Shown here one piece after another: positions 1,534 to 45,945 of a DNA stretch of 64,000 bases. Made by a program: the position numbers and the translations under genes. Under the pieces are notes generated by a model. It did not search any database. It worked only from the letters and a program-made list of their open reading frames with translations, and was not told the origin of the DNA. Source of the stretch: a virus; IMG/VR virus record IMGVR_UViG_3300042731_008397, positions 62,001 to 126,000 of that record; one strand, written 5' to 3'. Numbering within the stretch: the first letter of the stretch is position 1; every line of letters starts with the position of its first letter.

Positions 1534-1660
1534 GCCCTGTAAGGCTCCCCATCCTGTGGGGAGTACGGTTCCCTGACCTGGATACAAGGGTGACAGGGCC
1601 TGCAAGTGGGACCGTCCTCGCAGGGTGTCAATACCTGCATCCATACGGCACGTCCTTATC
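1534..1660 (-). ncRNA. E-family structured leader RNA, copy 1
   Basis: One of six copies of a ~125-nt conserved element. Written on the plus strand it holds: hairpin S1 (CTCCCC-ATCCTGT-GGGGAG); an arm GGATACAAGG that can pair with the downstream CCTGCATCC (pseudoknot-like stem B/B'); and stem S3 (CCTGC...GCAGG). In other copies these stems change by compensatory substitution. Sense is taken as minus because five of the six copies lie upstream of a gene in that orientation. This copy is separated from its gene (start 1122) by the miniature transposon at 1277-1464. Confidence 0.75.
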
Positions 1661-1672
1661 CCGATAAGCGGA

Positions 1673-2575
1673 TTACTCTTCACAGACCACAACCGGGATG
1701 TCGGTTTGTTGGTTAGCAGCGTTTACTCGTTTCTCGTCCGCCTCATTCCCTTTATTCTTGTCTTTGACCACATCTACCTGCGTAATCGGGAACGAAGCAA
1801 AAACAGCGGGAATATAAATAGGCGGTTCCTCAAGCTCAGGTTGTCCCCTTCCCCAGTATGTAAACGAAGGCATGGATCGCATAACTGACCGAGGATTAAC
1901 TTCTTTCAATTCCTGTTCATCTCCGTTATCCTCGTCAACTTCGGTAAGAGCGATAAGAGTCCCGCCAAGAATATCTTCCCACCAGAGCCCGGCGCAAAAA
2001 TCGGCAGATTCCCCGTCTCTAAGCTGTTGAAAGTTCTCTGGTTTGTGGCGCTCTTTAATCGCCAATACTTCTTCTAATGGGGGTAAGATGCCTCGCGGGT
2101 CTTTCTTCTCTGGTAACGGACATTTCCAGGTTTCATAGTTTGCTCTCAACCAACCTTCCCCACCGTCTGGTTCAAGGATAAAAGCCCGGCGATGGACAAG
2201 TAAAAGTCGGCTATTTTTGGTTAATTTGGAAAAGTCAAGATTATCACTTGCCCGCCGTGAGATGCCAAAACGTTTACCTTCTTCTATGAAGTCTGCCACA
2301 TTCTGGTAATGCTCTTCTCCGATCCAGTCCAGAACATGGTATGGTTCATCTTCTTTGTCGGGATTGACTTGAAAAAGGAGTTGACCTCGTTTTTGTAGGC
2401 TAACTGGCTCAGTATCGGGCGGGAATATCATAAGTGAATCTTTTTCGGGGATCGGCAGCGGCGGATCTACAATGAAATAATTCCACGGCAATCCGAACGG
2501 AGAAAGCCCGCAACCTAAATAAATTCCTCCGTATCTTTCACCACAACCCCGTGCTACGGGTATTGGTCCAGACAT
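1673..2575 (-). CDS. Hypothetical phage protein (300 aa)
   Basis: Not recognised. The ATG at 2575 is chosen over an upstream start at 2644 because AAGGAG lies about 8 nt before it. The N-terminus has a glycine/cysteine-rich segment (RGCGERYGGIYLGCGLSPFG) followed by an aromatic-proline stretch. The rest is mixed and soluble, with a charged Lys/Glu/Asn-rich C-terminus. No signal peptide or membrane helix is present. It sits about 95 nt downstream of E-family RNA copy 2 and is in line with the gene at 2827-3795, so both may be co-transcribed with the RNA lying between them. Confidence 0.7.
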   Translation of the reverse strand: MSGPIPVARGCGERYGGIYLGCGLSPFGLPWNYFIVDPPLPIPEKDSLMIFPPDTEPVSLQKRGQLLFQVNPDKEDEPYHVLDWIGEEHYQNVADFIEEGKRFGISRRASDNLDFSKLTKNSRLLLVHRRAFILEPDGGEGWLRANYETWKCPLPEKKDPRGILPPLEEVLAIKERHKPENFQQLRDGESADFCAGLWWEDILGGTLIALTEVDEDNGDEQELKEVNPRSVMRSMPSFTYWGRGQPELEEPPIYIPAVFASFPITQVDVVKDKNKGNEADEKRVNAANQQTDIPVVVCEE

Positions 2576-2669
2576 AATAACGCTCCTTAGTTTGAAGAAA
2601 CAATGAGAGAGTTCCCGTTGTTTCTTAATTAGAATTATGCTCACTAATAGTGAGCGGAATATTCCAGAG

Positions 2670-2796
2670 TCCTATAAGGCTCCCCAACCTGTGGGGAGTA
2701 CGGTTCCCTGACCTCGGTACAGGGGTGACAGGGTCCGCAAGTGGGAACGTCCTCGCGGAGTGCCCGTACCTGTATCGAATTGGCGCGTCTTCACGC
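2670..2796 (-). ncRNA. E-family structured leader RNA, copy 2
   Basis: Same architecture as copy 1. S3 is TCCGC...GCGGA here against CCTGC...GCAGG in copy 1, a clean double substitution. Stem B/B' is CGGTACAGG with CCTGTATCG. S1 is CTCCCC-AACCTGT-GGGGAG. It occupies the gap between the genes at 2827-3795 and 1673-2575 and ends about 95 nt before the ATG at 2575, in the sense direction of that gene. Confidence 0.78.
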
Positions 2797-2826
2797 CGAC
2801 ACGGATAATTTGAGATGTTTTCAATC

Positions 2827-3795
2827 TTATATGTCCGTGCGACAGCGAAGTTCCCATGCAACGGCAGAATTGCGCGGATAAAACACAGGTCCGTCAGGAC
2901 TCGCCTGAGCAAAAGAACCGTTTTCGCCTTCATCAAGTTCAAACACTGTGTTTTTAACAATGGTAAACTTTTCATTCCCGTCAGTTGAGCGAATTACAAT
3001 GTCATATGCTTCGCCTGATTTCAGGAAACCTGTGGGAGCCTGCGCTGGCAAGTGTTCTAAGTCTTCAAATTTCGGGTATTTATATTCGGTAGTGCGGTTG
3101 CTTTCTTCATCTTCATGATATATCGCCCCTTCGATTTCTCCCCCGATTTTTAAGATACCGCCGACTAAATTTTTGATTACCGTAACTTCACCGTCTTTGA
3201 CCGTTAAAAGCTTATCCACGTTTGTTTTTTTAAAGAAATTCTTTAAAGTCACTCTGAGACCTTCACCTTCTGGAAAAAACGACTGGACATACGGGGAATC
3301 CCCCAATTTCCGCTTGATCTCTTCTAATAATTTATTGAAGGCTTCATAGACAAAATACGGCATGGTAATTTTGACGGTGATTTGTTTCATAATGGCGGGA
3401 ATAACATCAGAATCGGTGATTTCAACCCATTCAGGGCGATATTTGGCAAGCAAATAATTCTTTTCATCAATCGAAATTTGCCCGTCATGGTGATGATCCA
3501 GGGCATACGTAATCTCTTTCCTTAGTCTGTCAAAAATCCCCAATTGTTTGACTCCTTTTACGGTACGCCCCTCATAAAGGGTATTTAGCTGTTGTAGTGC
3601 TTTTACTTGCAATCTGTTTCCGGCAATTAACGTTTCAATCTCTCTGACCCAGTTGACGGTCTCAATAACGCCTTGCTCAGATTGGAGTAATTCTTGTAAT
3701 GCCGGAAGTCCTTGCTCAAAATCCCGACTATAGGCATCAAGTACCTTGCGGGTCTCCTCGCTAAGGACAAATGGTATTCGTTTATATTCTGACAT
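2827..3795 (-). CDS. Hypothetical protein (322 aa)
   Basis: Not recognised. The ATG at 3795 has an excellent ribosome site (AGGAGGAGC, 5-7 nt upstream). The protein is soluble: an alpha-helical, Glu/Leu/Gln-rich N-terminal half (about residues 1-110), then a mixed alpha/beta part, and a C-terminal beta-rich domain from about residue 210 (KDGEVTVIKNLVGGILKIGG onward). No catalytic motif was seen. It heads a minus-strand unit driven by the promoter at 3881-3909 and reading towards E-family copy 2 and the 300-aa gene. Confidence 0.7.
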   Translation of the reverse strand: MSEYKRIPFVLSEETRKVLDAYSRDFEQGLPALQELLQSEQGVIETVNWVREIETLIAGNRLQVKALQQLNTLYEGRTVKGVKQLGIFDRLRKEITYALDHHHDGQISIDEKNYLLAKYRPEWVEITDSDVIPAIMKQITVKITMPYFVYEAFNKLLEEIKRKLGDSPYVQSFFPEGEGLRVTLKNFFKKTNVDKLLTVKDGEVTVIKNLVGGILKIGGEIEGAIYHEDEESNRTTEYKYPKFEDLEHLPAQAPTGFLKSGEAYDIVIRSTDGNEKFTIVKNTVFELDEGENGSFAQASPDGPVFYPRNSAVAWELRCRTDI

Positions 3796-3880
3796 AAGCT
3801 CCTCCTGTTGTTGGAGTGGTTAAATCTCCCGTGTTTAAATCGTTATCGGGAGGAAGAATACTGCGAAAAGACAAAGAACA

Positions 3881-3909
3881 CTCTAAAATATTAATAGGTT
3901 AAATGTCAA
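3881..3909 (-). promoter_or_regulatory. Sigma70-type promoter for the gene at 2827-3795
   Basis: On the minus strand TTGACA (3904-3909) is followed, after 17-18 nt, by TTAGAG/TAGAGT (about 3880-3886). The same TTGACA...TAGAGT pair recurs upstream of E-family copy 5 at 45608-45636. A leader of roughly 80 nt precedes the strong Shine-Dalgarno at 3795. Confidence 0.6.
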
Positions 3910-3996
3910 GAATTTTTTTTATTTTTAAACATATATCTTGTAAGTTGTTGTTAATACATTACTTACAGACTCTTGTAAAAATAATAAAAATATTTC

Positions 3997-4035
3997 TTGA
4001 CAATACTTGACAATATATGTAAATAAATTTATCCA
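3997..4035 (+). promoter_or_regulatory. Overlapping promoters for the recombinase-domain operon
   Basis: Two perfect -35 boxes (TTGACA at 3997-4002 and 4007-4012) lie 10 bp apart. The second can pair with TATCCA at 4030-4035 (17-nt spacer), putting the transcription start about 2 nt before the ATG at 4044, i.e. a nearly leaderless message. The first can pair with TAAATA at 4020-4025. No Shine-Dalgarno precedes the ATG, which fits leaderless translation. Confidence 0.55.
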
Positions 4036-4043
4036 TAGATTCT

Positions 4044-5503: not shown

Positions 5504-5511
5504 GGCAGCGG

Positions 5512-6090: not shown

Positions 6091-6092
6091 TT

Positions 6093-7628: not shown

Positions 7629-7632
7629 TATC

Positions 7633-7676: not shown

Positions 7677-7701
7677 ACGGGAGTTTTTTGCTTAAAAATC
7701 T

Positions 7702-7769: not shown

Positions 7770-7795
7770 GCCATGATAAGAGTGTGTGTTACTTA

Positions 7796-9413: not shown

Positions 9414-10780
9414 ACTTATAGATAACGGTGCAAGAAAACCCATTCTATCCCTTTAGGGATGGGAGGAATTGCGCCACGGGCGAAAGCCCGTCAAAAAAAG
9501 TGTTCTTTGAGATAAAAAAACCTTGACAATAATAAAAAGCTTTGTTTTTCTAGTAGCCATGATTCACAAAGCGTTTAAATACCGACTTTCACCAACACAA
9601 GCGCAACAAGAGGTTATTGCCAGGACGTTTGGGTGTTGTCGCTATGTGTATAATTGGGGTCTGTCTGAGAAAGTGAAGGCGTATGAGCAGGAGAAACAGA
9701 CGCTTTCCTGTGTTGATCTCATTAAGCGCCTAACGACCTTAAAACAAGAACTCCCCTGGTTGAAAGAGGTGTACTCGCAAGCATTACAGATGTCCTTACG
9801 GAATCTTGACAATGCCTTTACCCGGTTTTTTAAGAAGTTAGGCGGGTTTCCGAAGTTCAAGTCACGGAAGAATCATCACCAATCCTGTCAATTTCCACAG
9901 GGCGTCAAAGTCGATTTTGAGAAGAAGACGGTCTATCTGCCAAAAATAGGAGATGTTCATCTAAAGATGCGAAAAAAAACGCATATCTTTGACGGAAAGA
10001 TTAAAACTGTCACGTTACGGCAGACCCCCTCTGGGAAATATTTTGTCAGTCTCTTGGTGGAACTTGACCAGGAACTTCCGAAAAAACCACCAATTGAACT
10101 AAAGACAACCGTAGGCGTGGATATGGGAATTAAGACCTTTGTCACGTTGTCAACGGGGGAAGAGATTGAGCATCCAAAGACCCTGAAGAAGTCATTAAAG
10201 ACGTTAAAACGCTTACAGCGTCAACTCTCTCGAAAGCAGAAAGGCAGTCGCAACCGGGACAAAGCCAGGAAACGATTGGCAAAATTACATGAACATGTCA
10301 GTAATCAGCGTGAAGATTTTTTGCATCAAGTCTCTCATCGGTTAACGAGTGAGAACCAAGCTACAACGATAGCGATGGAAGACTTGCATATTGCTGGCAT
10401 GGTGAAAAATCACAAACTGGCTCAGGCCATCATAGATAGCGCCTGGGGGATGTTTGACAACTTCGTGGCGTATAAATGTGACTGGCGTGGCAAGAACCAT
10501 CTGCATATCCATCGGTTTGCCGCGAGCAGCCGGATTTGTTCGTTGTGTGGGTGGTATAATACTGAATTAACCCTAAAAGACCGTGTATGGACATGTGGCG
10601 GGTGCGGCGCAAAACGCCCCCGCGATCTCAATGCTGCGAAGAATATTCGCAAATGGAGCGTCCATCCACAAAATATGGTAGGTCTGACATAACCGATGTT
10701 AAGCCTGGGGAGTGTTGCCGGTAGGTGACACGACGAACCAGGAAGGAATCCCAGGTGCTTCAGCCCTGGGAGGATGTCAA
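9414..10780 (+). mobile_element. IS200/IS605-group TnpB element 1 (no tnpA)
   Basis: The element comprises a left end with a hairpin CCCATTCTATCCCTTTAGGG-type structure (about 9445-9470), the tnpB gene at 9559-10692, and a right end. The right end has the hairpin CCCAGGTGCTTCAGCCCTGG (10751-10770) and finishes TCAA at 10777-10780. The right end is nearly identical to those of element 2 and the miniature element, so all three share end chemistry. No tnpA is present, so transposition would need Y1 transposase in trans. The insertion lies between dnaB and the next gene, whose Shine-Dalgarno begins right after the right end. The exact left boundary is uncertain. Confidence 0.75.
9559..10692 (+). 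CDS. tnpB: TnpB RNA-guided nuclease, element 1
   Basis: Starts at the ATG at 9559 (MIHKAFKYRLSPTQ), the normal TnpB beginning; an upstream start at 9523 would add a foreign hydrophobic extension. The RuvC-like core is intact: catalytic Asp in GVDMGIKTF, Glu in TIAMEDLHI, and the last Asp in PRDLNAAKNI. A four-cysteine zinc ribbon lies between the last two (CSLCGWYN, CGGCG). TnpB cleaves DNA guided by the RNA copied from its own right end and promotes element retention. A -35 TTGACA (9523-9528) lies 31-36 bp upstream with a poor -10, again placing transcription start near the ATG. Confidence 0.9.
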   Translation: MIHKAFKYRLSPTQAQQEVIARTFGCCRYVYNWGLSEKVKAYEQEKQTLSCVDLIKRLTTLKQELPWLKEVYSQALQMSLRNLDNAFTRFFKKLGGFPKFKSRKNHHQSCQFPQGVKVDFEKKTVYLPKIGDVHLKMRKKTHIFDGKIKTVTLRQTPSGKYFVSLLVELDQELPKKPPIELKTTVGVDMGIKTFVTLSTGEEIEHPKTLKKSLKTLKRLQRQLSRKQKGSRNRDKARKRLAKLHEHVSNQREDFLHQVSHRLTSENQATTIAMEDLHIAGMVKNHKLAQAIIDSAWGMFDNFVAYKCDWRGKNHLHIHRFAASSRICSLCGWYNTELTLKDRVWTCGGCGAKRPRDLNAAKNIRKWSVHPQNMVGLT

Positions 10781-15747: not shown

Positions 15748-16149
15748 ATGTTATTAGCAGACCAAGAAGTACAAGAACCAGGATTGGTTGTCCCGTTTCC
15801 TTGTAAGTCTACGTATACATCACCGGCTAAAGGTGACAAAGTAGAACTTACAGCAGACAATGAAGTAGCCCCTATTGCGGATGCGACTACTTCTAGTGCA
15901 TACGTAGGCGAAGTGGAAACAATAAGTCCTGATGATACGGAAGTTCGAGTAAGGACGCCATTCAGGAAAGTCATTACAGTATCATCTTACGCCGCTATTG
16001 CTAGTCCTGGATTAGGCGTTTGGGTTGGGCAGAAAGTTCGGTTGTATAATGATGGAGTGGATGTCAGTGGCTTAGCGATAGCTTCCCGAATGATGATTTT
16101 GGAAACAGCAACAGGTGCTGACGAAGATGTCCATATAGGTCTATATTAG
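15748..16149 (+). CDS. Small capsid-associated (decoration/cement-like) protein
   Basis: 133 residues, ATG at 15748 with AAAGGAG 8-9 nt upstream. The sequence is nearly all beta, Ala/Thr/Val-rich (SPAKGDKVELTADNEVAPIA, then VSSYAAIASPGLGVWVGQKV), as in DUF2190-like capsid cement proteins. It lies between the assembly protein and the major capsid protein, the standard place for a decoration or stabilising protein. It ends with tandem TAG TAG stops. Family membership is inferred from composition and position. Confidence 0.6.
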   Translation: MLLADQEVQEPGLVVPFPCKSTYTSPAKGDKVELTADNEVAPIADATTSSAYVGEVETISPDDTEVRVRTPFRKVITVSSYAAIASPGLGVWVGQKVRLYNDGVDVSGLAIASRMMILETATGADEDVHIGLY

Positions 16150-25015: not shown

Positions 25016-25025
25016 TAGTTAACTT

Positions 25026-30822: not shown

Positions 30823-30993
30823 ATGAAACAAGAAGATAAATATACAACGCTCCGAATTTGGACATCAAGTGTCCAAAAGCTTCGTCTCATCTATGCGTTG
30901 ACAGGTGAAACGATGGTGAAAATTTTAGACCGATTGTTAACGGATGAATTGAAACGAATACAAGCATCTCATGATCATCACGAAAAACTATAA
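30823..30993 (+). CDS. Ribbon-helix-helix regulator inside TnpB element 2 (56 aa)
   Basis: The frame reads MKQEDKYTTLRIWTSSVQKL and continues RLIYALTGETMVKILDRLLT. This is a strand (TTLRIW) followed by two helices, the Arc/CopG-type ribbon-helix-helix fold, with the usual T-x-R-I-type strand. Its last 23 bp overlap the start of tnpB. The inverted repeat in its promoter is the probable binding site. It likely limits transcription of the element; coupling with tnpB suggests joint expression. Confidence 0.75.
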   Translation: MKQEDKYTTLRIWTSSVQKLRLIYALTGETMVKILDRLLTDELKRIQASHDHHEKL

Positions 30994-32119
30994 ATACAAG
31001 CTGTACCGGAATAAGAAAAACAAGCACTTACATCAACAGATTAACATTGCAGGGATTATCTATAACCATTGTATCGCCCTGCATAAAAGGTACTACCGGA
31101 TTTATGGGAAACATCTGAACTGCTATCACATCCAAAAGCATATCACAAAACTTAAGAAACATCCGCGTTATGCATTCTGGAACCTTGTCGGTTCACAAGT
31201 CATTCAGAATATTTGTCAACGCATCGACAAAGCGTATAAACTCTTTTTCCGTAACTTGAAACACAGCATCAAGACGGCTCCGCCAGGCTTCAAGAAGGTC
31301 AAAAAATATAAATCGTTCACCCTCAAACAAGCCGGGTGGAAACTGCTTGACGGCAATAAAATTCAACTCAATTCCCATGTTTATAAATACGCAAAAAGCC
31401 GTGACATCGAAGGAACTATCAAAACCGTTACCGTTAAGCGAGACACCTTAAATAATCTGTACTTGTGTTTTTCGGTCAAACAAGAAATCGAAATACCAGA
31501 CACCAGGGATAACAGCCGGGTCTGTGGATTTGATTTTGGACTAAAAACCTTTCTCGTTTTGTCTAATGGCAGTGACATCAAGAATCCTCTCTTCTTTAAA
31601 CAATCTCAAAAGGACATCAAACACGCTAATCGTGATCTATCCCGAAAACAAAAAGGTTCCAATCACTACAAACACGCCAAACGGACGCTTGCTAAAGTCC
31701 ATGAAACGGTCAAAAACCGTCGCAGGGACTATCAGTTCAAACTGGCACATCAATTGATCGATGACTACGATGTCCTGATATTTGAAACCCTCAATATCAA
31801 AGGAATGCAACGGCTGTGGGGGAAGAAAGTCAACGACTTAGGATTTGCCTCGTTTCTGCTAATTTTGAAACATGTGGCAGTTCCGAAAGGCAAGATTGTC
31901 TTCTTTCTTGACCAGTGGCAACCGACGACGAAACCCTGTTCCGCGTGTGGGTATCTGAATTACGGCTTAACACTGAACGACCGGTATTGGACATGTCCGC
32001 AATGCAGTACATTCCATAATCGAGATAAAAACGCTTCGATAAATATTGAGCGACAGGGCGTTGTCGCTCTTGGGTTAGGCGGTGTAAGACCTCCATTAGG
32101 TGAGGCAACCGCTGTCTGA
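30971..32119 (+). CDS. tnpB: TnpB RNA-guided nuclease, element 2
   Basis: 382 residues beginning MIITKNYKYKLYRNKKNKHL. The RuvC residues are intact: Asp in GFDFGLKTF, Glu in VLIFETLNIKG, Asp in HNRDKNASINI. The zinc-ribbon cysteines are in CSACGYLNYG and CPQCST. The C-terminal ~20 residues (GLGGVRPPLGEATAV) are encoded by the right end, where the guide-RNA scaffold should lie. It overlaps the RHH gene by 23 bp. Sequence is clearly diverged from the TnpBs of elements 1 and 3, so the three are separate arrivals. Confidence 0.9.
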   Translation: MIITKNYKYKLYRNKKNKHLHQQINIAGIIYNHCIALHKRYYRIYGKHLNCYHIQKHITKLKKHPRYAFWNLVGSQVIQNICQRIDKAYKLFFRNLKHSIKTAPPGFKKVKKYKSFTLKQAGWKLLDGNKIQLNSHVYKYAKSRDIEGTIKTVTVKRDTLNNLYLCFSVKQEIEIPDTRDNSRVCGFDFGLKTFLVLSNGSDIKNPLFFKQSQKDIKHANRDLSRKQKGSNHYKHAKRTLAKVHETVKNRRRDYQFKLAHQLIDDYDVLIFETLNIKGMQRLWGKKVNDLGFASFLLILKHVAVPKGKIVFFLDQWQPTTKPCSACGYLNYGLTLNDRYWTCPQCSTFHNRDKNASINIERQGVVALGLGGVRPPLGEATAV

Positions 32120-34958: not shown

Positions 34959-36731
34959 TTAAGTTGTCCGATAAAAGGTCACATAGAATCTTAAAAGTTC
35001 ATCTTTCTCCTTTAATAAGGGAGAAGTGCCTTGGTTGCTTTCTTGTAAACTTTTCCGGGTTAGATCTTGGAGTTCTTTTTCTACTGACAGACGGGCGTAA
35101 TAATCGAGGCAATCAGTAATTATAGAATCTGCTGCCTCTCCCGTTATCGGGGTTGCCACAAGAGCCGTGATATAGGTATGGTATTCTGGTGAGACTTTAT
35201 GGAGGATAGCCCCTAAATTGGGACTCTCCGAAGGATCGGCCAAAAAGTGAGAAATTACTATCTGACCTACTTCCGTCATTTGGGCAGGGTCAACAGAATA
35301 TTCTTGCCGCCGATCCCTCGGTAAACCGGCTAATGCCCGTATGAACAGGCGTTCCGCCGGTGGTAATGTTACTTGCTTAGATTTAAGGGGTTTAGGAGAA
35401 GTTCCTGAAAGAATTCTCCCGAAATGGAGTGCCAATGTTGGATGACTCATTTGTAATTTTTCTGCCAGCACCTCTAACTGGGATAGCCGTGGCCGTCCTG
35501 CCGGTAACTGGGAGAGAAGAGTTCCGATAGTAGTCAAACATTTCCATTCTTGAGTCATCCCGGATTTAGGCTGATAATGGGCAATAATCTGGTCATATAA
35601 AAAATGCAGTAATGGCACAGACTTGGTAAGATATGATTCAAACTCCACTTGCCTTTCGGGGAGCAAGGAAGCAGGGTCTTCATTTAAAGGAAGAGAAATA
35701 ACTTGAATATTTTTTTCCAGTAATAGCCGTTTGGCGGTTTTTGTGAACGTCAATGTTCCGTCTTTCATAAAATGCCGGGAAATAGCTCTTTTCCCGGCGA
35801 CATCCCCGTCAAAAAGACAGATTAAAGTATCCGCGTATCTGCCCAAATTCTCTATATGATCCTCAGTGAGGGCAGTTCCGAGCGTTCCAATAACATTCGG
35901 ATGATGGCATTGCCACATAAGGATCGGATCAAAATAACCTTCTGTTAAAAAGACTTGTCGGGCTTTTCTGATAGAGTCTTTAGCAAGATGAAACCCGAAA
36001 AGTGTTTGTCCTTTCTTAAAGACTTCCGATTCGGGGCTATTGAGATATTTCGGTTGTTCGTGTCGGCGTGAAGTAGGCATGGAGTCATCTAAAATCCGAC
36101 CGCCAAAAGCAACAAGCTTTCCTCTTCCGTTATAAATCGGGATGATAACCCGATGCCTGAAAAAATCGTAATGTGTGTGTTTTTTCGAATGTTCCTGGAT
36201 TAACCCGAATTTCAACATGTCTTCTATTTTAAACTGGGAACCCAGTTGCCTCAATAGCCGTGTCCAGGCATTAGGCGCATATCCTAAACCATATTTCCGG
36301 ATCGTTTCATCTTTTAATCCCCGGTTACGTAAGTAAGAAAGGGCAGGATTTTTGCTTTCCCAAAGACATGTTTGGAAAAATGCCAAGGCTGCCTCTAATA
36401 GGCTGTCATCATATTGAGGCGGAGTGTCTTGACCCCGATCAGGAAGTGAGATACCCGCTTTCCCTGCCAGAAGTTGGACGGCTTCAGGAAAGGTACAGTG
36501 ATTAATCTTCATAATGAAATCAAAAACGTCTCCGCCTTCGCCACATTGCCCAAAACATTTCCAGTATTGCCCTTTCGGGTTGACCATAAAGGACGGGGTT
36601 TTCTCATGATGAAATGGGCAAAGTCCTTTTAGCCAGTTCCCACCTTTTTTCAAAAAAACATATTCTGGTATGACTTCTTCTAACGGGCTTTTTTGCTGGA
36701 TTTCTCTGATTAACTCGTTTGGATATTTCAT
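34959..36731 (-). CDS. dnaG: DNA primase, DnaG family
   Basis: 590 residues, normal length. Residues ~38-66 are the CHC2 zinc-binding domain (CPFHHEKTPSFMVNPKG, then KCFGQCGEGGDVFDFIM). The RNA-polymerase core follows, including the Toprim motifs EGYFDPI (~residue 263; usually EGYMD) and LFDGDVAGKRA (~residue 306). The C-terminus (~420-590) is the helical region that docks on DnaB. It makes RNA primers at the phage fork together with the DnaB at 7941-9413. It lies downstream of SbcD and a tiny lipoprotein on one transcript. Confidence 0.95.
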   Translation of the reverse strand: MKYPNELIREIQQKSPLEEVIPEYVFLKKGGNWLKGLCPFHHEKTPSFMVNPKGQYWKCFGQCGEGGDVFDFIMKINHCTFPEAVQLLAGKAGISLPDRGQDTPPQYDDSLLEAALAFFQTCLWESKNPALSYLRNRGLKDETIRKYGLGYAPNAWTRLLRQLGSQFKIEDMLKFGLIQEHSKKHTHYDFFRHRVIIPIYNGRGKLVAFGGRILDDSMPTSRRHEQPKYLNSPESEVFKKGQTLFGFHLAKDSIRKARQVFLTEGYFDPILMWQCHHPNVIGTLGTALTEDHIENLGRYADTLICLFDGDVAGKRAISRHFMKDGTLTFTKTAKRLLLEKNIQVISLPLNEDPASLLPERQVEFESYLTKSVPLLHFLYDQIIAHYQPKSGMTQEWKCLTTIGTLLSQLPAGRPRLSQLEVLAEKLQMSHPTLALHFGRILSGTSPKPLKSKQVTLPPAERLFIRALAGLPRDRRQEYSVDPAQMTEVGQIVISHFLADPSESPNLGAILHKVSPEYHTYITALVATPITGEAADSIITDCLDYYARLSVEKELQDLTRKSLQESNQGTSPLLKEKDELLRFYVTFYRTT

Positions 36732-36828: not shown

Positions 36829-38031
36829 CTACCTCGCTAATTGACGGGTTGCTTCTAACAATTCCGTCTGTAAAGGTTTATATTTCGGGTGGTCTTTTGT
36901 GTATTGTTCCACTTGAGTCTCAATAGCGTCCTCAAGTGTAACCGTGACCGCCTGTTGCTCCGTGTCTCGGTGTAAAGGGGTTATTTCGACATGGGATATA
37001 AAATGAACACCTTTTTGTTTAAACAACTTAAAGATGGAAGAAAGCATCCCACGAACTGCCATTATCCGGTCAGTGCGGATTTCAATTTTGACAATTGCCC
37101 TTTCAATATTGTAACTGAGTAAGGCAGTTTCGATTTTTTCAAGAGAGTCAATCCCTTCCATCGTAAAACAAAATTGATGAAACTCTCTTGCAGGGGATTC
37201 TATAAAATCATATTCTCCGAAATCTGTTCTTCGGAGAGTCACAAAAACCCCTCCTTTCGGGTCATTTCGTTCTCCAAACGTAACCCGTTCAAGTGTCCCT
37301 GAATATACTATTGGAGGCGTATTTGACACCCCAATAGAATGATCATTCCCGATATTCTGGTATTTATGAATATGTCCCATTGCCACGTATTGGACTTCAG
37401 GAAATGTAAAAAGATGTCGAGGGACAACCGGCTCCGTTCGTCCTGGCATAGAGAGTCTTCTCTCTGTGCCTTCATAGGTAGCCCCCTCAATTCCAAAATG
37501 CCCTAAAAAGATTGTCGGAATGGTATCTAACCCTTGTAACAGCATTTGGATTGTCTCTGTGTATCCAGCCTCTAAATCTGGATATTGAGATGGCAGTAAC
37601 CACGGAACAGCGATAACCCTTAAAGGCAAGCCTTTTTTTGTCTCTATAACCCTGCTACAGGGGGTTTTTAGAATGAATAGTGATTTGAAAGTAAATTCTC
37701 CTAATGCCTGAAGAAGGGAAATCCCTTGGGCACTATTAGGGAGATCATGATTCCCTGGTATCATGATAATAGGAATTTTTTCTTGTGTCACGGGTTGCAA
37801 TGCCTGAGCTAACTTCGCTATATACACGGGCTCCATAGACCATGTGTGGCAAATATCTCCTGCAATAACCAAAGCGTCCATATCCCGTTCTAATCCGGTT
37901 TTAATTAGAAATGTCAAGCTGTTTAGGATGTCCTGAGTTCGTGAATGTATCCGAGTCACCGGATCAAAACGCCCGTGTGTTCTCATGTTCAGGTGAATAT
38001 CGCCTAAATGTAGAAATTTTATAGTATCCAT
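36829..38031 (-). CDS. sbcD: SbcD/Mre11-type nuclease subunit
   Basis: 400 residues. All metallophosphoesterase motifs are present in order: GDIHL (near residue 11), AGDICH (~58), GNHD (~94), LGHFG (~171), MGHIH (~213). The C-terminal half is the capping/Rad50-binding region. With SbcC (39683-42292) it forms an ATP-dependent nuclease that opens hairpin and protein-blocked ends, as gp46/gp47 do in T4. Start ATG 38031 with AAGGAG. E-family RNA copy 3 ends only about 20 nt upstream, in the sense direction. Confidence 0.92.
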   Translation of the reverse strand: MDTIKFLHLGDIHLNMRTHGRFDPVTRIHSRTQDILNSLTFLIKTGLERDMDALVIAGDICHTWSMEPVYIAKLAQALQPVTQEKIPIIMIPGNHDLPNSAQGISLLQALGEFTFKSLFILKTPCSRVIETKKGLPLRVIAVPWLLPSQYPDLEAGYTETIQMLLQGLDTIPTIFLGHFGIEGATYEGTERRLSMPGRTEPVVPRHLFTFPEVQYVAMGHIHKYQNIGNDHSIGVSNTPPIVYSGTLERVTFGERNDPKGGVFVTLRRTDFGEYDFIESPAREFHQFCFTMEGIDSLEKIETALLSYNIERAIVKIEIRTDRIMAVRGMLSSIFKLFKQKGVHFISHVEITPLHRDTEQQAVTVTLEDAIETQVEQYTKDHPKYKPLQTELLEATRQLAR

Positions 38032-38052
38032 TTTTCTCCTTTTTTAATTGCA

Positions 38053-38175
38053 GTCCTGTAAGGCTCCCCATCTTGTGGGGAGTACGGTTTCCTGGCTTAG
38101 GTGTAAGGGTGAAAGTGTCCGTAACTGGGAACGTCGTTGCGGAGTTCCAGTACTTACATCTATTTAGCACGTCCT
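38053..38175 (-). ncRNA. E-family structured leader RNA, copy 3 (before sbcD)
   Basis: Most diverged copy, with preserved pairing. S1 is CTCCCC-ATCTTGT-GGGGAG. Stem B/B' is TAGGTGTAAG with CTTACATCTA, which differs from other copies on both arms. S3 is TCCGTAA with TTGCGGA. It ends about 20 nt before the sbcD start, so it must be part of the leader of any message reading from upstream. Confidence 0.8.
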
Positions 38176-38436
38176 CAGAACCGGGTATCTCCCGGTTAAA
38201 GCTGAGGTAAGCGTCCATTTAGATACAATGATTTGATCTGTGAAAGTTCCGGTTTCAGAGAAAGGTTGGGTTTGAGTGCATCTGAATTGATCCCGACTTT
38301 CGGGTGGATCGCTACAAATACCATATTCTCCACTGATGTCCCGGCAATTTTCTTCTAATAAGAAAAAATATAACAGGAAAAAGCCTATTACAGGTTTTCC
38401 TTCTGGTGTTGTTTCGATTAATTCTTGTAAGGTCAT
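38164..38436 (-). CDS. Small protein with hydrophobic segment and cysteines (90 aa)
   Basis: Not recognised. ATG 38436 with a strong AAGGAGAAG. Residues ~15-28 are hydrophobic (KPVIGFFLLYFFLLEE), after which come cysteines (ENCRDISGEYGICSDPPESR, QFRCTQTQ). It may be membrane-associated. A -35 TTGACA lies upstream (38467-38472 on the minus strand) with TATAAG at 15-nt spacing. Its 3' end touches E-family RNA copy 3. Confidence 0.6.
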   Translation of the reverse strand: MTLQELIETTPEGKPVIGFFLLYFFLLEENCRDISGEYGICSDPPESRDQFRCTQTQPFSETGTFTDQIIVSKWTLTSALTGRYPVLRTC

Positions 38437-39461: not shown

Positions 39462-39686
39462 TTATTTGTATGCCGTGCCTGCTTTCCAATTTAGCATCAA
39501 AGCCACGTTAAAGATACGTTCAGCCTGATATTTCACGTTTTTAGGTAAATCATCCCATGCCCATTCTTGGATTTTATGCTTTTTTAGGGCACATCCACGG
39601 GCAAGAGACACTTTCGGGCCTGAAAGAATACATTTTATAACAAGTGCCCGTTGCCAAGTCTCCATGATGTTCCAAAGTTCTTTCAC
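39462..39686 (-). CDS. Small protein coupled to sbcC (74 aa)
   Basis: Begins at GTG 39686 overlapping the sbcC stop (GTGA); an ATG at 39665 is the alternative. Helical and basic, with tryptophans and a HKIQEWAWDDLPKNVKYQAE segment. Not recognised. The overlap means translation depends on sbcC. Confidence 0.55.
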   Translation of the reverse strand: MKELWNIMETWQRALVIKCILSGPKVSLARGCALKKHKIQEWAWDDLPKNVKYQAERIFNVALMLNWKAGTAYK

Positions 39687-42292
39687 GTTATGACGGCTAA
39701 TGTTGAGCCTTCGCCTGGAATCTTGTTTACTTCAATCCTCGCGGGGAATTGCTCTTTTAGTTCCTCTATATGGGTGATAACAATGATTTTTAAGAAGTCT
39801 TCAGCCAGATCATATATTGCCCTTAAAAAATTCTCCCGTCCTTCGGCGTCTTGACTGCCAAATCCTTCGTCAATAACAAGCACTTTTAACGGAAGCCCGG
39901 TATGTCGTTTACAAAGTAATTGCGCCAGTCCTACCCGGATGGCAAAGTTGATCCGGAACTGTTCTCCGCCCGAAAATAACTCATAAGGCTGTTCAAACCC
40001 TCCGTACTGGCACATAATTTCTAACAGTTCAACCGTGTTACCTGAACCCGTTTCATATTCGGTTTTGAAATAGATAGCCGCGCCTCTCAAGAGACGTTGA
40101 AGGATGTCGTTTACTTCTTTCTCAAACTCTGGTAACGCTGTTGTTGTTAACCATGCGGGGATTCCGTCTCTTCCAAAAATCTCTTGTAGGTATGCAAAGA
40201 CCTGGACATTCTTTTCTAATCGGGCAATTTCCACAGAAAGCTCCGCAAGTGTGTTCATAAGCTCCTCTTGACGGGTTGTTAATGCTTCTTTTTGCCCAAC
40301 ACGGCGTTGTAGCATATCACAAGATTGTTGCCAACTCTGGACTGACCGGGTGATTTCATCCAAATGACGGGTATCTTGCTGCAAGGTTTCAATTTTTTGT
40401 CTCAGGTCTTCCCGTTCTTTGGTCAACCTTTCAATCTTCAGTAAAAGATCACCAATACGCTGTTCTTCCTGCTCACAAATTGGCGTAAGGGTTTCAACGC
40501 CCGATTTGGCGACGGTTAGCTGTTCATATAAAACATTATTGTTTTGTAATTCCTTATCTCCGAGTAACACTCGGATTCTTTCGTGTTCCTCGGCATCATA
40601 TTCAGGAAGGACCAACTTATTCAGTTTTTCCTCAAGAGATTCTTTGTATTCTCCCGTCTTAAGGAGCGTTTGCAGTTTCTCATAACGCTGTCTTTTGACA
40701 CTTATACTTGCCTGAAGGTATGTTATATCTTCTGTAACCGATGTTAAGCGTTCCGCTATTCGGGTTAATTCAACCTGTGTATCCCGTACCACGTCAAGAG
40801 TCTGTTCTATTTCGGCATGTCTTGTATTTAGCTCCGGTTGTTTGCTTTTTATTGCCATGTTTGCCTCTGCAAACTTCCTTGATTTCTCTTTTTCCCGAAT
40901 AAGTTCTATAAGAAGCCGTTTAAACGCTTCTTCAGAGAGAGGTTGACTACAAAGCGGGCACTCTGCCGTTCCTTCCGGGGCTTCTTCAAGAAATTTTATC
41001 TTTTTGTTTAATTCTTGCTCTTGGGTTAACAACCGCTTTGTCTCCTCGCTACGGGCATTGTCTTCCGAAAAAGCCTCTCGGAGGTCTTTTTCGCAAATTA
41101 CCCGTTGCTCTTCCAATTCAATTATTCTCTGTTCAACCTTTATACGGGAGCTTAACCGCTCTTCAAGTTCAGTTTTTTCTTTTTGCTTCTCTTCTAACTG
41201 TAAGGTTTCCGTTTCAAGGGCTTCCTGGGTTGTTTTTAAGTCTTTTTCAAGATTTCGTTTAAGCTCCTCTATGCGGGTCAAGATGACCTTTTGTTCAGAG
41301 CTTATCCGTAAAAACTCCTGGTAAACCTGATCGATGGATGACGCCTTTATCCGGGCTTCTTCATAAACCGTATGCGCCTTGACAACCTCTTCTTCCTTTT
41401 TAAGAATTTCATGGTATTGTTGGATTGTTTCTTTATGGGCATTTAATGACCGATCGAGGGATATTTTTGTCTCTTCTACCCCCGTAACCTCTTGTGAGAT
41501 GGTTGTGATCCGTTCTTTTGCCTTATTAAGCTCTATTTCCTGAGCTTTTAGTTTTTGAAGAGTCTCTTTTTCATGCTCTAATCGGGCTTTGGCGACCCCT
41601 AAGTCTTTTTCAACATCTTTAAGTTCCTTCAAGTCTTCCGTTACCTGTTCTAAAGCTGCCGTACTTTGGGAAAAGTGATACTGTAAGCCTCCCAACTTCC
41701 CCGCAAATTGGTCATGTTCCTGCTTTGCTTTTCTACTGAGGACTTTAAATCTCTCCAATCCGATTACTTCATGAAATATTTCCTTTCTTTGGGCTGGACG
41801 GGCTTCTGTAAATCTTCCGGCATTATTTTGTTTTAAAAAGACCGAGGAAACGAAGGTTTCAAATCTCATCCCCACTATTCGGGTGATCTCTTCCTGTGTT
41901 CCTTTATTTGTTTTCCCCGTTAATGACCGAAATTTGGGGGAAATTTGTTCAAAAGTGATTTTCATTGTACTTTTATCCAGATCATGTGAAGAAGATAGAT
42001 AAAGTTCCCGATAGACGGTGAATGTGCTATTGTTTTTGTCAAGTAACCGGAATGTAAATTCAACCGAGCACGATCTGGTACCATGCCGGATCACCCCAGT
42101 TCCTGGGGTAGCCTTTCGCCCTGCTTTCCGTGCTTGTCCCCAAATTGCCCAGGTTAAGGCGTCAAGTAATGAGGATTTTCCATTTCCGTTCTGTCCCGAA
42201 AGGCAAATTAAATGCAGTTCCTCGAAATTGATTTCCGGGACATCTTCGCCGTAACATAAAAAATTACTTACTTTCAATGTTACTGGTATCAT
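39683..42292 (-). CDS. sbcC: SbcC/Rad50-type ATPase
   Basis: 869 residues. Walker A GQNGNGKSSLLDA (~residue 34); two long coiled coils; the zinc-hook cysteines CPLC in ECPLCSQPL at the apex (~residue 442); ABC signature FSGGEQ (~771); Walker B LKVLVIDEGFG (~800). It is the ATP-driven clamp partner of SbcD, folding back at the zinc hook so both ATPase halves meet. The genes are separated by ~1.6 kb of small genes, unlike the usual adjacent order. The start overlaps the preceding small gene by 29 bp. Expected role: end processing in phage recombination-dependent replication. Confidence 0.94.
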   Translation of the reverse strand: MIPVTLKVSNFLCYGEDVPEINFEELHLICLSGQNGNGKSSLLDALTWAIWGQARKAGRKATPGTGVIRHGTRSCSVEFTFRLLDKNNSTFTVYRELYLSSSHDLDKSTMKITFEQISPKFRSLTGKTNKGTQEEITRIVGMRFETFVSSVFLKQNNAGRFTEARPAQRKEIFHEVIGLERFKVLSRKAKQEHDQFAGKLGGLQYHFSQSTAALEQVTEDLKELKDVEKDLGVAKARLEHEKETLQKLKAQEIELNKAKERITTISQEVTGVEETKISLDRSLNAHKETIQQYHEILKKEEEVVKAHTVYEEARIKASSIDQVYQEFLRISSEQKVILTRIEELKRNLEKDLKTTQEALETETLQLEEKQKEKTELEERLSSRIKVEQRIIELEEQRVICEKDLREAFSEDNARSEETKRLLTQEQELNKKIKFLEEAPEGTAECPLCSQPLSEEAFKRLLIELIREKEKSRKFAEANMAIKSKQPELNTRHAEIEQTLDVVRDTQVELTRIAERLTSVTEDITYLQASISVKRQRYEKLQTLLKTGEYKESLEEKLNKLVLPEYDAEEHERIRVLLGDKELQNNNVLYEQLTVAKSGVETLTPICEQEEQRIGDLLLKIERLTKEREDLRQKIETLQQDTRHLDEITRSVQSWQQSCDMLQRRVGQKEALTTRQEELMNTLAELSVEIARLEKNVQVFAYLQEIFGRDGIPAWLTTTALPEFEKEVNDILQRLLRGAAIYFKTEYETGSGNTVELLEIMCQYGGFEQPYELFSGGEQFRINFAIRVGLAQLLCKRHTGLPLKVLVIDEGFGSQDAEGRENFLRAIYDLAEDFLKIIVITHIEELKEQFPARIEVNKIPGEGSTLAVIT

Positions 42293-42509: not shown

Positions 42510-42650
42510 CTTTCAATTTCCTTCAGAAATCTCTGAAAGCGTTTGGAGGAAGGCGCGAGCCTCCCTCGCTGGACGTGAAATGCGCCACATAGCCGGTCAA
42601 CATTTCTGCCTTCCGGGTACTTTTTCTTTGAGTCAACACCGTATCCAGGA

Positions 42651-43397
42651 TTAACTATTGTACTGTATTACCGGGACATAACCTTCTTTAGCCTGCCAGA
42701 GTCCTAATTGTACGGGCCTTTCCTGCGTTACTGGCTCACGCGGTTTTTGGTAATGAGGACAATCAATATTCCCGATTTTTGACTCACATTCGGCGCATAA
42801 CCGCCATTGACGGTCTTTATCCTCCCACGCGGTTTTTTCGACCTGTTCACCGCCTGGGCATAGAACCGTCTCCCGATATTTCGGGCACGGATCGGGATAT
42901 TCGGTAAAATATTCCGGATCGCCGCACTCTTTGAGGTCTTCATTCCAACAAAGGCATGTATGGCATTTGTCAAGCGGATACTTGTAAAGATAAACAACAT
43001 CATCCGCCCCGGCTTGAAAAAATTCAACCAGCCATTGTTCTCCGTGTAAGTAACGGACATATCCAGAGTTTTCTTCTATATCATACCACGATATTTCAAT
43101 ATAGTAAACTCCCGATTCAAGGCTGGTTTTTTCAATGCTGCCTTTCCATAAGTTCTCTTTTGTCTCCATCACGGCAAAAGGAGCTAACACTTCCCGAACA
43201 AGGCGATTCCGCTCCTCTTGAAAATTATAGCCCGGAGCGGCATATACCATTTTAGGGATCGGGAAAGGCCCTCCTTTCCCTTTTACCAATGTCCCATTAC
43301 GGACATATTTGTTTAAAAGTCGTTTCTCTTCTTTCGATAACTGCCCAATGTCGGTTATAGATTTAGCAATAGCTCTTTGAATTAATTTTGGCGACAT
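42651..43397 (-). CDS. Cysteine-rich phage protein (248 aa)
   Basis: The N-terminus (KEEKRLLNKYVRNGTLVKGK, then GPFPIPK) resembles a helix-loop module found at the start of small phage proteins. From ~residue 145 the protein is cysteine-rich (CHTCLCWNEDLKECGD, CPKYRETVLCPGG, CAECESKIGNIDCPHY), enough for two or three zinc or iron-sulfur sites. No catalytic motif recognised. The start at ATG 43397 lies 20 nt after E-family RNA copy 4. Could be a DNA- or RNA-binding regulator. Confidence 0.65.
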   Translation of the reverse strand: MSPKLIQRAIAKSITDIGQLSKEEKRLLNKYVRNGTLVKGKGGPFPIPKMVYAAPGYNFQEERNRLVREVLAPFAVMETKENLWKGSIEKTSLESGVYYIEISWYDIEENSGYVRYLHGEQWLVEFFQAGADDVVYLYKYPLDKCHTCLCWNEDLKECGDPEYFTEYPDPCPKYRETVLCPGGEQVEKTAWEDKDRQWRLCAECESKIGNIDCPHYQKPREPVTQERPVQLGLWQAKEGYVPVIQYNS

Positions 43398-43417
43398 TAT
43401 TATATTTTTCTCTTGAA

Positions 43418-43537
43418 AAGCTCCCTATCTTGTAGGGAGTACCGGTTCCCTGACCTGGGTACAGGGGTGACAGAGTTTACAAGTGGGAACGTCCTCATAA
43501 AGTGTCGTTACCTATATCCATGTGGCACGTCTTTATC
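43418..43537 (-). ncRNA. E-family structured leader RNA, copy 4
   Basis: S1 here is CTCCCT-ATCTTGT-AGGGAG: relative to other copies a C-G pair is replaced by T-A on both sides. S3 is TTTA...TAAA instead of CCTGC...GCAGG. B/B' is TGGGTACAGG with CCTATATCCA (one mismatch). The element ends ~20 nt before the ATG at 43397. Confidence 0.8.
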
Positions 43538-43571
43538 CCCACCCGTTAGGCGAACATAAAGTAAGTATAGT

Positions 43572-43955
43572 CTTTAAAAAACTTCATATCTTATAACTTG
43601 CCCAGTTTCAGGGGCTTTTGAGTACCTTTTTTCAGAGCGAATTTAAAAAACTTGAAAACTACAATTTCCCCGGTTTCAGGGAGTTTTACTTTTTATGTTT
43701 ATAAGATGTTAAGTTTTTTGAATATAGTCTTTAAAAAACTTAACATCTTACAACATCCCCATCTTCAGGGAGATTAGAGCATGTTTTTTGTATAAGTTTT
43801 CAAATTTTTTGACCCTATATATTTCTTTTTAAAATTTCTCTTTAAGAGAAATAATATTAAATATATCATTCAAAAAACTTAAAAACTATGGCTAAAATCT
43901 TCTGAGTCTGACTGATTAACGGGACTTCTGTAAGATGTTAAGTTTTTTGAATTCT
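43572..43955. repeat. AT-rich iteron-like repeat array, candidate origin or centromere
   Basis: In a 637-bp gap without genes, a core like TTTAAAAAACTTAACATCTTA occurs at least six times: direct at ~43574, 43652, 43731 and 43869, inverted at ~43702-43723 and 43931-43951, with a diverged inverted copy at ~43783-43815. Copies at 43702 and 43731 form a near-perfect palindrome. Three direct copies are each followed by CCC-N4-TTCAGGG-type motifs (43601, 43669, 43757), so the repeating unit is ~80 bp. Very AT-rich stretches lie between. Such arrays are typical of replication origins (iterons) or partition centromeres. Confidence 0.7.
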
Positions 43956-44034
43956 TATAGTGAATTTTCACGTCAAATTCCTGACTTTGCCCTATTAGCA
44001 GCCGCTTTCTCGGAATTCAAATAATTTGAATTCC

Positions 44035-44394
44035 CTAAAAACTCCCGCTATACAGTCGGCAAGAGTTTAATCGGTTGAATTTTTTCATAACAATATTTTC
44101 AGAGAGCCCATACCTTGTTTCTAATCGGGCAATAGCCGCTCTTATTCGGTCCATCTCATTGTTAGTCCGGTGAAATGCTGCCCAGTTCATGGTCTCCTGG
44201 ATGACCTTACCTTTCCCTCCGTCTTCATATTCAGCTTGACCCCATAGATAATCGAGGTACTGACTTAACTGTTCCCATCTTTCGGCTTTTTTGACCAATC
44301 GTTTTTCTTCAGGAGACAGTCCTTTATAAGTAATCTTTAGTCGCCGTGTCCGGATCTGGTCTTCTCTGATATTTGCTTTTAAATACTTTTGCAT
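44035..44394 (-). CDS. Helical, basic protein next to the repeat array (119 aa)
   Basis: Not recognised. It is strongly helical and rich in Arg/Lys (REDQIRTRRLKITYKGLSPE, EKRLVKKAERWEQLSQYLDY), with a final KKFNRLNSCRLYSG. The gene ends 80 bp from the last iteron-like repeat. Size, charge and position fit a DNA-binding replication or partition protein, but no fold signature is visible. F-family copy 3 lies directly upstream in antisense orientation. Confidence 0.6.
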   Translation of the reverse strand: MQKYLKANIREDQIRTRRLKITYKGLSPEEKRLVKKAERWEQLSQYLDYLWGQAEYEDGGKGKVIQETMNWAAFHRTNNEMDRIRAAIARLETRYGLSENIVMKKFNRLNSCRLYSGSF

Positions 44395-44407
44395 AGTTTC
44401 TAAAAAA

Positions 44408-44510
44408 TACTCTCTGGCACTCTGAGAGACGCCGTATGGCTCTTTCTCTCATAATCCCCTATGAGTATAGGGATTGACATTCCGACTGCTTACAATCGAA
44501 ATTTGGCACG
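44408..44510 (+). repeat. F-family dispersed element, copy 3 (subtype a)
   Basis: TCTCTGGCACTCTGAGAGAC, then CCCCTATGAGTATAGGG hairpin, TTGACATTCCGACTGCTTAC and AATCGAAATTTGGCA. It lies between two minus genes but is oriented against them, unlike copy 2. Confidence 0.7.
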
Positions 44511-45218
44511 TTATGAGACGTTTTCGGTTTTATGTAGCTTAACCAGCACAGGCCCCATAAGGCTAATAACGTCATCGGATTTCCATTCAGAAAGTTCCCA
44601 TTCTCTTGTTAAGTCTTGCCGGGTTTCTTGATCACCTCCTGAAGCCCGTAACAAGAGTTGTTGCAATAATGATGGCTGATCTGGATGTTCGCTAAACCAC
44701 TGTATAGCGGGCGTCAACTCGTTTCTTCTCCATTCTTTCCAATCAAATTGAGGAGATGTTTGTACCGGAGCCCCAGTATGCGGTAAAGGAATAACCGGAG
44801 TAGTAGAGGATGTTGGACGTAATTTGATTTCTTGTATGATTGCGGTTTCTTCTTTTTGGCATATAAGGGCGGTCAGCGGCAGAAGATTAACCCGAAAATG
44901 CCGCCGTGTGGCGAATTGACGTTTTAATGCTCGAACCTCTCTGAAAAGTACCGTCTCCGGGATCTTTTCCAACGTTTTTTGTTGCTGGTAATATGAGAGA
45001 AGAGTGTCCTTCTCCATTTGTGGAACGGTTTTCCAAAATGTTCCGTCAGGCTGAAGTTGACCAGCTAAAATAAAGTAAATCTGTTGACTTGTTAAATAGA
45101 GCATAATCCGGTCTGCCGGTGTCCCCCAAACTGCCGTAAGACGGTAAAGGACAATCCAAGTATCTCTCGGAATAATATCGAAAAACATTGGAGCTATTAA
45201 AGAATTGACATCTTCCAT
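44511..45218 (-). CDS. Unknown protein near repeat array, possible replication initiator (235 aa)
   Basis: The N-terminal ~100 residues are helical with a winged-helix-like alternation (RDTWIVLYRLTAVWGTPADR, IMLYLTSQQIYFILAGQLQP, VPQMEKDTLLSYYQQQKTLE). The next part is strand-rich and basic (ALKRQFATRRHFRVNLLPLT). A Pro/Thr-rich linker leads to a C-terminal helical domain. Plasmid Rep proteins often have such an N-terminal winged helix and lie beside iterons, but no Rep signature is definite. E-family copy 5 and a 14-bp-arm palindrome lie upstream. Confidence 0.5.
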   Translation of the reverse strand: MEDVNSLIAPMFFDIIPRDTWIVLYRLTAVWGTPADRIMLYLTSQQIYFILAGQLQPDGTFWKTVPQMEKDTLLSYYQQQKTLEKIPETVLFREVRALKRQFATRRHFRVNLLPLTALICQKEETAIIQEIKLRPTSSTTPVIPLPHTGAPVQTSPQFDWKEWRRNELTPAIQWFSEHPDQPSLLQQLLLRASGGDQETRQDLTREWELSEWKSDDVISLMGPVLVKLHKTENVS

Positions 45219-45297
45219 AGAATTTACTTGACAAGAAGATACCTATAGGAGATAGTTGGCAATACTTCATATAGGCATTTCTGGTTAGTTGTCTTTT

Positions 45298-45332
45298 CTT
45301 AGGTGACTTGTGTACGGGACAAGTCACCTAAG
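45298..45332. promoter_or_regulatory. Long perfect palindrome, likely operator or protein-binding site
   Basis: CTTAGGTGACTTGT (45298-45311) and ACAAGTCACCTAAG (45319-45332) are 14-bp perfect arms around a 7-bp centre. No T-run follows on either strand, so it is not a normal terminator. It lies 80 bp upstream of the gene at 44511-45218. Confidence 0.6.
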
Positions 45333-45442
45333 CGAAATTCCTCAATCGTTTGTTATTTCAAAAACCTTCGTTTCAAATTCTTTGTTGATCGGGATCTTAA
45401 CATAGCTTATTTGCCGTGTGTCAGTACTCGGTGACACCCTTC

Positions 45443-45567
45443 CCTGTAAGGCTCCCCATCTTGTGGGGAGTGTCGGTTCCCTGACGTCGGTGTTGGGGTG
45501 GCAGGGCCTGCAAGTGGGAACGTCCTCGCAGGGTGTCGGTACCAACATCGGTGCCGCACGTCCTTAT
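45443..45567 (-). ncRNA. E-family structured leader RNA, copy 5
   Basis: S1 CTCCCC-ATCTTGT-GGGGAG. B/B' is CGGTGTTGG with CCAACATCG, a fully Watson-Crick or G-T paired stem that differs from all other copies in both arms. S3 CCTGC...GCAGG. It follows a promoter (45608-45636) by about 40 bp and is ~225 nt upstream of the gene starting at 45218, farther than the others. Confidence 0.8.
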
Positions 45568-45607
45568 AACGAAGTCATTAATAAGGTAGAGTGATACGAA
45601 TTTTTAC

Positions 45608-45636
45608 ACTCTAAAAAAGTGGTAAAGAATTGTCAA
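45608..45636 (-). promoter_or_regulatory. Promoter of E-family copy 5
   Basis: Minus strand TTGACA (45631-45636), 17-nt spacer, TAGAGT (45608-45613). The start would be ~45600, about 35 nt before the RNA element, supporting the minus strand as the transcribed one. Confidence 0.7.
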
Positions 45637-45666
45637 GAATTTTTTTAAACGCTTTACTATTCAGAG

Positions 45667-45687
45667 AAAGGGCGGACTCCGCCCTTT
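45667..45687. promoter_or_regulatory. Perfect GC palindrome in the divergent region
   Basis: AAAGGGCGGA (45667-45676), one base, TCCGCCCTTT (45678-45687). It lies between the divergent promoters of E copies 5 and 6. It could be an operator or a partition site for the ParM/ParR pair downstream. Confidence 0.5.
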
Positions 45688-45722
45688 GACAAACACACGG
45701 GCATTTTAATAAAAAAAATAGC

Positions 45723-45770
45723 TTGACATTTTCAAATATTATTTTATGATAGTTTTTATGATAAAATAAT
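45723..45770 (+). promoter_or_regulatory. Promoter with inverted-repeat operator before the par/ruvC genes
   Basis: TTGACA (45723-45728), 16-nt spacer, TATGAT (45745-45750). Arms ATTATTTTAT (45738-45747) and ATAAAATAAT (45761-45770) form an inverted repeat across the -10 and start point. ParR proteins commonly repress their own operon by binding repeats in the promoter, so this region is the best centromere/operator candidate for the system downstream. Confidence 0.65.
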
Positions 45771-45827
45771 AGTCGCTTCACTGTTGTACGGGTGTAGGAG
45801 GTTGCACTTCTTTAAGACCGCCCGTGT

Positions 45828-45945
45828 CGGCGTGAAGACGCGCCAGATGGATATAAGTAACGGCACCTTATGAGGACATTCCCACTTGTAAGCTCTGTCA
45901 CCCTTATACCCAGGTCAGGGAACCGTACTCCCCACAAGATGGGGA
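45828..45945 (+). ncRNA. E-family structured leader RNA, copy 6 (plus strand)
   Basis: The only copy on the plus strand, and the only one before a plus gene, which fixes the sense of the family. S1 CTCCCC-ACAAGAT-GGGGAG. S3 CTTA...TAAG in the reverse-complement view. B/B' TGGATATAAG with CTTATACCCA (one mismatch). It ends ~50 nt before the ATG at 45999. Confidence 0.8.

Follow-up and report, generated by a model that had tools for sequence, protein, structure and literature searches.

RNA antiterminators that work without a dedicated protein are known from operons, as in the case of EAR/epsC (PMC2864571), and EAR, put and canT exemplify RNA antiterminators of operons and mobile elements (PMC11658703). 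In phage HK022, putL lies just downstream of the promoter PL and putR about 270 nucleotides (nt) downstream of PR (PMC9378689). Here we describe an RNA element present in eight copies in a single phage genome (IMG/VR record IMGVR_UViG_3300042731_008397; full length 132,054 bp). Six copies (c1 to c6) lie in the stretch of 64,000 nt at positions 62001–126000 of that record, which we will refer to as the window, and two (a and b) lie outside it. This RNA family is well supported, apparently undescribed and so far confined to one phage genome, and it most likely represents a new cis-acting family, with leader and intercistronic members that are likely to control their own transcripts.

Like HK022 put, the element is a structured, sense-oriented phage RNA that occurs in more than one copy per genome; its copies c5 and c6 lie near the (here predicted) transcription start, one on each arm of a divergent promoter pair, as put does at the early promoters of HK022. 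By contrast, put consists of two adjacent stem-loops in about 70 nt and occurs in two copies, whereas the phage element has five or six helices (consensus P0, B, S2, S3, S1 and S4) over 136–183 nt and occurs in eight copies, of which c5 and c6 follow predicted promoters and b, c1, c2 and c3 are internal to operons. No sequence relation between the two was seen. The EAR/epsC RNA (RF01735), similar in length and endowed with antitermination activity, is likewise a structured RNA within an operon, but it comes from a different organism and gene setting, and its Rfam model did not match the element even with expect values (E) of up to 10. Tn916 canT, a mobile-element RNA early in a long operon and a proposed modifier of RNA polymerase, is compared here by its setting, and we know of no multi-copy family of it. 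The cyanophage manA and wcaG RNAs (RF01745 and RF01761) are structured and likely form 5′ untranslated regions of phage genes, but they are tied to marine cyanophage metabolic genes and gave no Rfam match to the element. Finally, the sbcD RNA (RF01757) shares its name with the gene following c3, but it is known from Burkholderiales, the other seven phage copies precede other genes, and its model did not match the element.

Census of the element in the phage genome

The original prediction, made from the window sequence, reported six copies of an RNA of about 125 nt. All six were found where it had placed them, but the true total is eight, with two copies beyond the window. Specifically, a search of the whole record, first with a single copy and then with a covariance model trained on every copy, detected exactly eight elements scoring 138–155 bits, the next-best score in the genome being 9.2 bits. 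This set is far beyond chance, and the existence of a structured RNA family is near certain. Copies a and b occupy genome positions 42101–42227 (plus strand) and 57702–57828 (minus strand), respectively; within the window, c1 to c5 are on the minus strand and c6 is on the plus strand. Pairwise identity among the eight copies is 68–94% over 128 columns. Copies a and b are alike at 83% over 172 nt, and because this similarity runs slightly past the element into the last codons of queD, their sequences suggest that one of them probably arose by duplication from the site of the other.

Fold and covariation

RNAalifold predicted, for the sense strand, a long hairpin made of three nested helices, B (9 pairs), S2 (4 pairs) and S3 (8 pairs, capped by the 10-nt loop GACGTTCCCA), followed by the hairpin S1; to this fold we added a short hairpin, S4, after S1, so that two hairpins make up the 3′ part of the element. 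In a count over 30 pairs, 96.2% of cells were paired, and 13 of the 30 pairs had double changes with pairing kept (28 double-change cells in all). None of 500 shuffles scored as high, and sliding the 3′ partners by 1–3 columns left at most three double-change pairs. Since the shuffle control ignores the relatedness of the copies, we also counted GU and AC cells; there were 18 of the former and 6 of the latter, in favour of the sense strand given in the original prediction. When all column pairs were scanned, S3 and B ranked first and no other helix rivalled them. The pair count and both controls thus confirmed the covariation that had been proposed for S1, S3 and B/B′. Folding of single sequences gave z-scores from −1.3 to −3.8, with some helices unrecovered in some copies; in the alignment, copy b has a broken S2, in which twelve bases of the 3′ region repeat the 5′ region. 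Given that eight paralogous copies in one genome supply covariation without any homologues, the fold is well supported even though the family is an orphan.

Conservation was not limited to the helices. Among the unpaired columns, 34 of 58 are invariant, exceeding what base pairing requires and thereby suggesting recognition by a partner. A protein-coding explanation was rejected, as every reading frame is interrupted in at least one copy and c4 and c5 differ from the other copies by an insertion of one base. We also discarded an alternative helix, CCCTG/CAGGG (87.5% paired, zero double changes), and the idea that S1 is an intrinsic terminator, as it is not generally accompanied by a U run.

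Two structural points of the original prediction had to be revised. One was the pseudoknot, in which B/B′ was thought to cross the pairing that encloses S3: B/B′ and S3 are in fact nested, and the candidate crossing helix GTACGG/CCGTAC, 77.5% paired with zero double changes, was not supported. A possible second loop contact would join the loop sequence GUUCCC to GGGAAC downstream of B (93.8% paired, invariant, zero compensatory changes). The other was the extent of about 125 nt, which set the 5′ boundary too far downstream. In all copies, the bases directly 5′ of a conserved GACG pair with a stretch starting 14–61 nt upstream, and this helix, P0, covaries between copies: it is CTTCAT/GTGAAG in a and b, CTTAT/ATAAG in c1, CTTCGC/GTGAAG in c2, CCTCAG/CTGAGG in c3, CTTTAT/ATAAAG in c4, CCTTAT/ATAAGG in c5 and CTTCAC/GTGAAG in c6. 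Six unbroken pairs were present in 7 of 8 copies and Watson-Crick pairs only in 4 of 8, compared with means of 2.4 and 0.17 (maxima 6 and 2) in 500 shuffles of the upstream sequence. With the upstream strand of P0 included, the complete elements, from P0 through S4, measure 136–183 nt.

Genomic context of the copies

Positions in this section refer to the window unless given as genome positions, and open reading frame (ORF) calls were mechanical. All eight copies lie in gaps between genes, and all eight read in the same direction as the genes downstream, as had been proposed. The further suggestion that the element stands upstream of genes across several operons is right insofar as the copies are spread over several, but a number of them fill gaps within operons instead of standing at operon heads.

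Copies c5 (45440–45586, minus) and c6 (45776–45958, plus) lie back to back between divergent operons, each being the first element behind a predicted promoter: TTGACA-17-TAGAGT for c5 (45608–45636, minus; 10/12) and TTGACA-16-TATGAT for c6 (45723–45750, plus; 11/12), the latter sequence being repeated at genome positions 6687 and 9887. The two elements begin approximately 15 and 19 nt, respectively, past the predicted start sites, which fall at about 45601 (minus) and 45757 (plus). Copy c6 ends 40 nt before ORF 45999–46325, after which comes a ParM-like gene. Downstream of c5 there is also a 14-bp inverted repeat, CTTAGGTGACTTGT..ACAAGTCACCTAAG (about 45300–45350, minus), without a U run.

Copies c5, c4 and c3 follow each other along a single run of minus-strand genes, among them sbcC, sbcD and the genes for primase and portal. 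Copy c4 (43409–43561, minus) is separated by 11 nt from the start of ORF 42651–43397, and c3 (38052–38207, minus) ends 20 nt before the start, at 38031, of the sbcD-like gene (36829–38031, minus; phrog_100, E 7e-28); the sbcC-like gene (39683–42292, minus; phrog_77) lies between c4 and c3. Another minus-strand run, headed by a predicted promoter TTGACA-18-TAGAGT (3880–3909, minus), carries c2, c1 and b in series and ends in queuosine-pathway genes. Here c2 (2668–2850, minus) has its likely downstream start codon, an ATG with AAGGAG, at 2575; c1 (1533–1668 from P0 to S4, minus) lies 5 nt past the stop codon of ORF 1673–2644, and after its S4 a GTG with AGGG 5′ of it opens a frame of about 47 codons; b sits between queD and queE. 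The genes queC, queE and queD (genome 52933–53595, 56812–57408 and 57839–58243) suggest 7-deazaguanine DNA modification or tRNA queuosine.

Searches for relatives

Some of the collections that we searched may omit records very near that of the window, and the following negative results hold at the sensitivity stated for each. No Rfam 15 covariance model matched the element at the gathering threshold, and raising E to 10 yielded unrelated chance matches only, in agreement with the earlier impression that it belongs to no known class. Comparison with annotated phages and plasmids by blastn gave no match. Four patterns searched in IMG/VR returned 10 loci, none of which was a covariance-model match or a convincing RNA, and one pattern searched in GTDB returned none. 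The covariance model, when run on four genomes with related TnpB genes, three records of hit loci and 50 records of phages with a distantly related capsid protein, gave one marginal match (11.5 bits, E 0.18), which we took as chance. Nor did the primase, terminase and capsid proteins reveal any close relatives of the phage in these collections. Inside this genome the description of the RNA as phage-wide holds, but the searches of these collections found the element in no other phage. Because the features of known families that we tested were absent, or in the case of the promoter-proximal site present in some copies only, we did not assign the element to any of them.

Function of the element

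Given the 34 invariant unpaired columns, the eight unrelated downstream contexts and the site of c5 and c6 behind predicted divergent promoters, we consider it probable that the element is a cis-acting RNA with one common partner. It would be made within phage mRNAs, at the 5′ end in c5 and c6 (and probably a and c4) and as an intercistronic element in b, c1, c2 and c3, and would fold in the order P0, conserved GACGYGC linker, B/S2/S3 hairpin with its conserved 10-nt loop, conserved linker, S1 and S4. A single factor would recognise all eight copies, making the genes downstream a regulon. As to mechanism, we tentatively hypothesise that the element acts as nascent RNA: it would bind RNA polymerase during elongation, either unaided or together with a protein of the phage or host, and alter the enzyme's processivity, on the model of HK022 put, B. 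subtilis EAR and Tn916 canT. We favour such an effect because put has the closest layout and because EAR and canT are examples of RNA elements with this kind of action in operons and mobile elements, though it is a proposal that could readily turn out otherwise. The strong sense-strand covariation and the serial placement of c5, c4 and c3, and of c2, c1 and b, in long single-strand operons also speak for it. Several observations weigh against it. Terminator-like sites in the region of c5, c4 and c3 number 21, compared with 16.8 ± 4.4 in shuffles, i.e., there is no clear excess. A put-type element has a reach of at least 10 kb (PMC9378689), which would seem to make three such elements in a stretch of 8 kb superfluous. 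Antitermination also has no need of a start codon close by, yet a possible one lies near the end of most copies.

The element may instead be a translational or post-transcriptional regulator. In that case an RNA-binding protein of the phage or its host, or a ribosome as it leaves the gene upstream, would shift the fold close to the start codon and thereby set how the following gene is translated. In most copies a possible start codon comes shortly after S4; S4 itself holds a putative Shine-Dalgarno sequence, AGG(A/G), with a start codon 4–9 nt later in b, c1 and c5 only, AGGAG-ATG occurs 10–80 nt beyond the element in c3, c6 and c2, and in both c2 and b P0 extends across the stop codon of the preceding gene (ORF 2827–3795 in the case of c2). 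However, the AGGA or AGGG belongs to S4 itself, and by our estimate chance alone would place a start codon within range in about 1.7 of six copies, so that three are not significant; moreover, the geometry differs in c6, c4 and a, meaning that pairing of S4 with the Shine-Dalgarno sequence is not general. We regard translational control as rather unlikely, though as a close rival of an effect on the polymerase. Another close rival, likewise rather unlikely, is a role in processing or stability, by which the element would cut the polycistronic transcript (by its own ribozyme activity or with the help of a nuclease) or block exonucleases, so giving each segment its own stable end. The serial arrangement of copies within operons, the compactness of the fold, the large number of unpaired bases that do not vary and the position of c5 and c6 at predicted transcript 5′ ends would all suit this role, but no ribozyme family in Rfam matched the element even at E up to 10, and a nested double pseudoknot like that of the hepatitis delta virus (HDV) ribozyme would need the crossing helix, which lacks covariation, while the possible loop contact is invariant.

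The size of the element, its invariant loop and linkers, and the location of b between queD and queE would also be compatible with a ligand-sensing riboswitch. We nonetheless consider this very improbable, as the downstream genes (sbcD, ParM-like, PIG-L, the queE side and several of no known function) have no common pathway and Rfam, which holds the known riboswitch classes, yields no match. Least plausible of all is a repeat that is mobile or guide-like, for example one derived from IS200/605 or serving as an omegaRNA scaffold. The genome does carry five TnpB genes, and the 3′ end of queD appears to have been carried along in a duplication of copy a; but a TnpB omegaRNA scaffold overlaps or abuts tnpB, whereas none of the eight copies adjoins such a gene, similarity between copies stops near the element without common ends, and P0 covaries between them.

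An effect on the polymerase, if correct, would define a new RNA-only class of antitermination, to our knowledge the first to be used many times in one phage; if the element acts on translation or processing instead, one RNA would coordinate phage repair, partition, queuosine-pathway and other genes. More speculatively, and with considerable doubt, one phage may have multiplied to eight sites an undescribed RNA class that targets the transcription machinery or has some other cis-acting role, and with at least one other multi-copy structured leader family this would amount to RNA-defined regulons replacing the usual phage-encoded protein switches.

Other repeats in the genome

A second multi-copy family, of about 100 nt with three hairpins and a few compensatory changes, has four copies, at genome positions 15968–16077, 26499–26607 and 35030–35138 (all plus) and 104528–104622 (window 42528–42622, minus). 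A TTGACA..TAATAT promoter stands before two of these, and the copy in the window lies ahead of a start codon within the run of genes that contains sbcC; this family may be another structured leader RNA. We dropped the idea that it is a TnpB scaffold, as a promoter was seen upstream.

A third intergenic family, also about 100 nt long, combines a constant CCCCTAT..ATAGGGG hairpin with a GGCG..CGCC hairpin and shows little covariation. It is found at genome positions 101358, 111185, 106409 (minus), 15334, 128351 (minus), 43316 and 49118, with related shorter copies near 1219, 5756, 6109 and 11669. There is also a repeated module in which a TTGACA-17-TTATAT promoter, a leader, a CAGGAGG ribosome site and an ATG follow each other on one strand (genome 48932, 52488, 50890, 904–995 and 4151).

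The five TnpB (OrfB_IS605) genes lie at window positions 9523–10692, 30971–32119 and 61709–62824 and at genome positions 44202–45251 and 24640–26475. They have repeated end sequences, some of which occur without a gene, and a long tandem repeat of units of about 70 nt (genome 26811–27433) lies downstream of the TnpB gene that encodes 611 amino acids.

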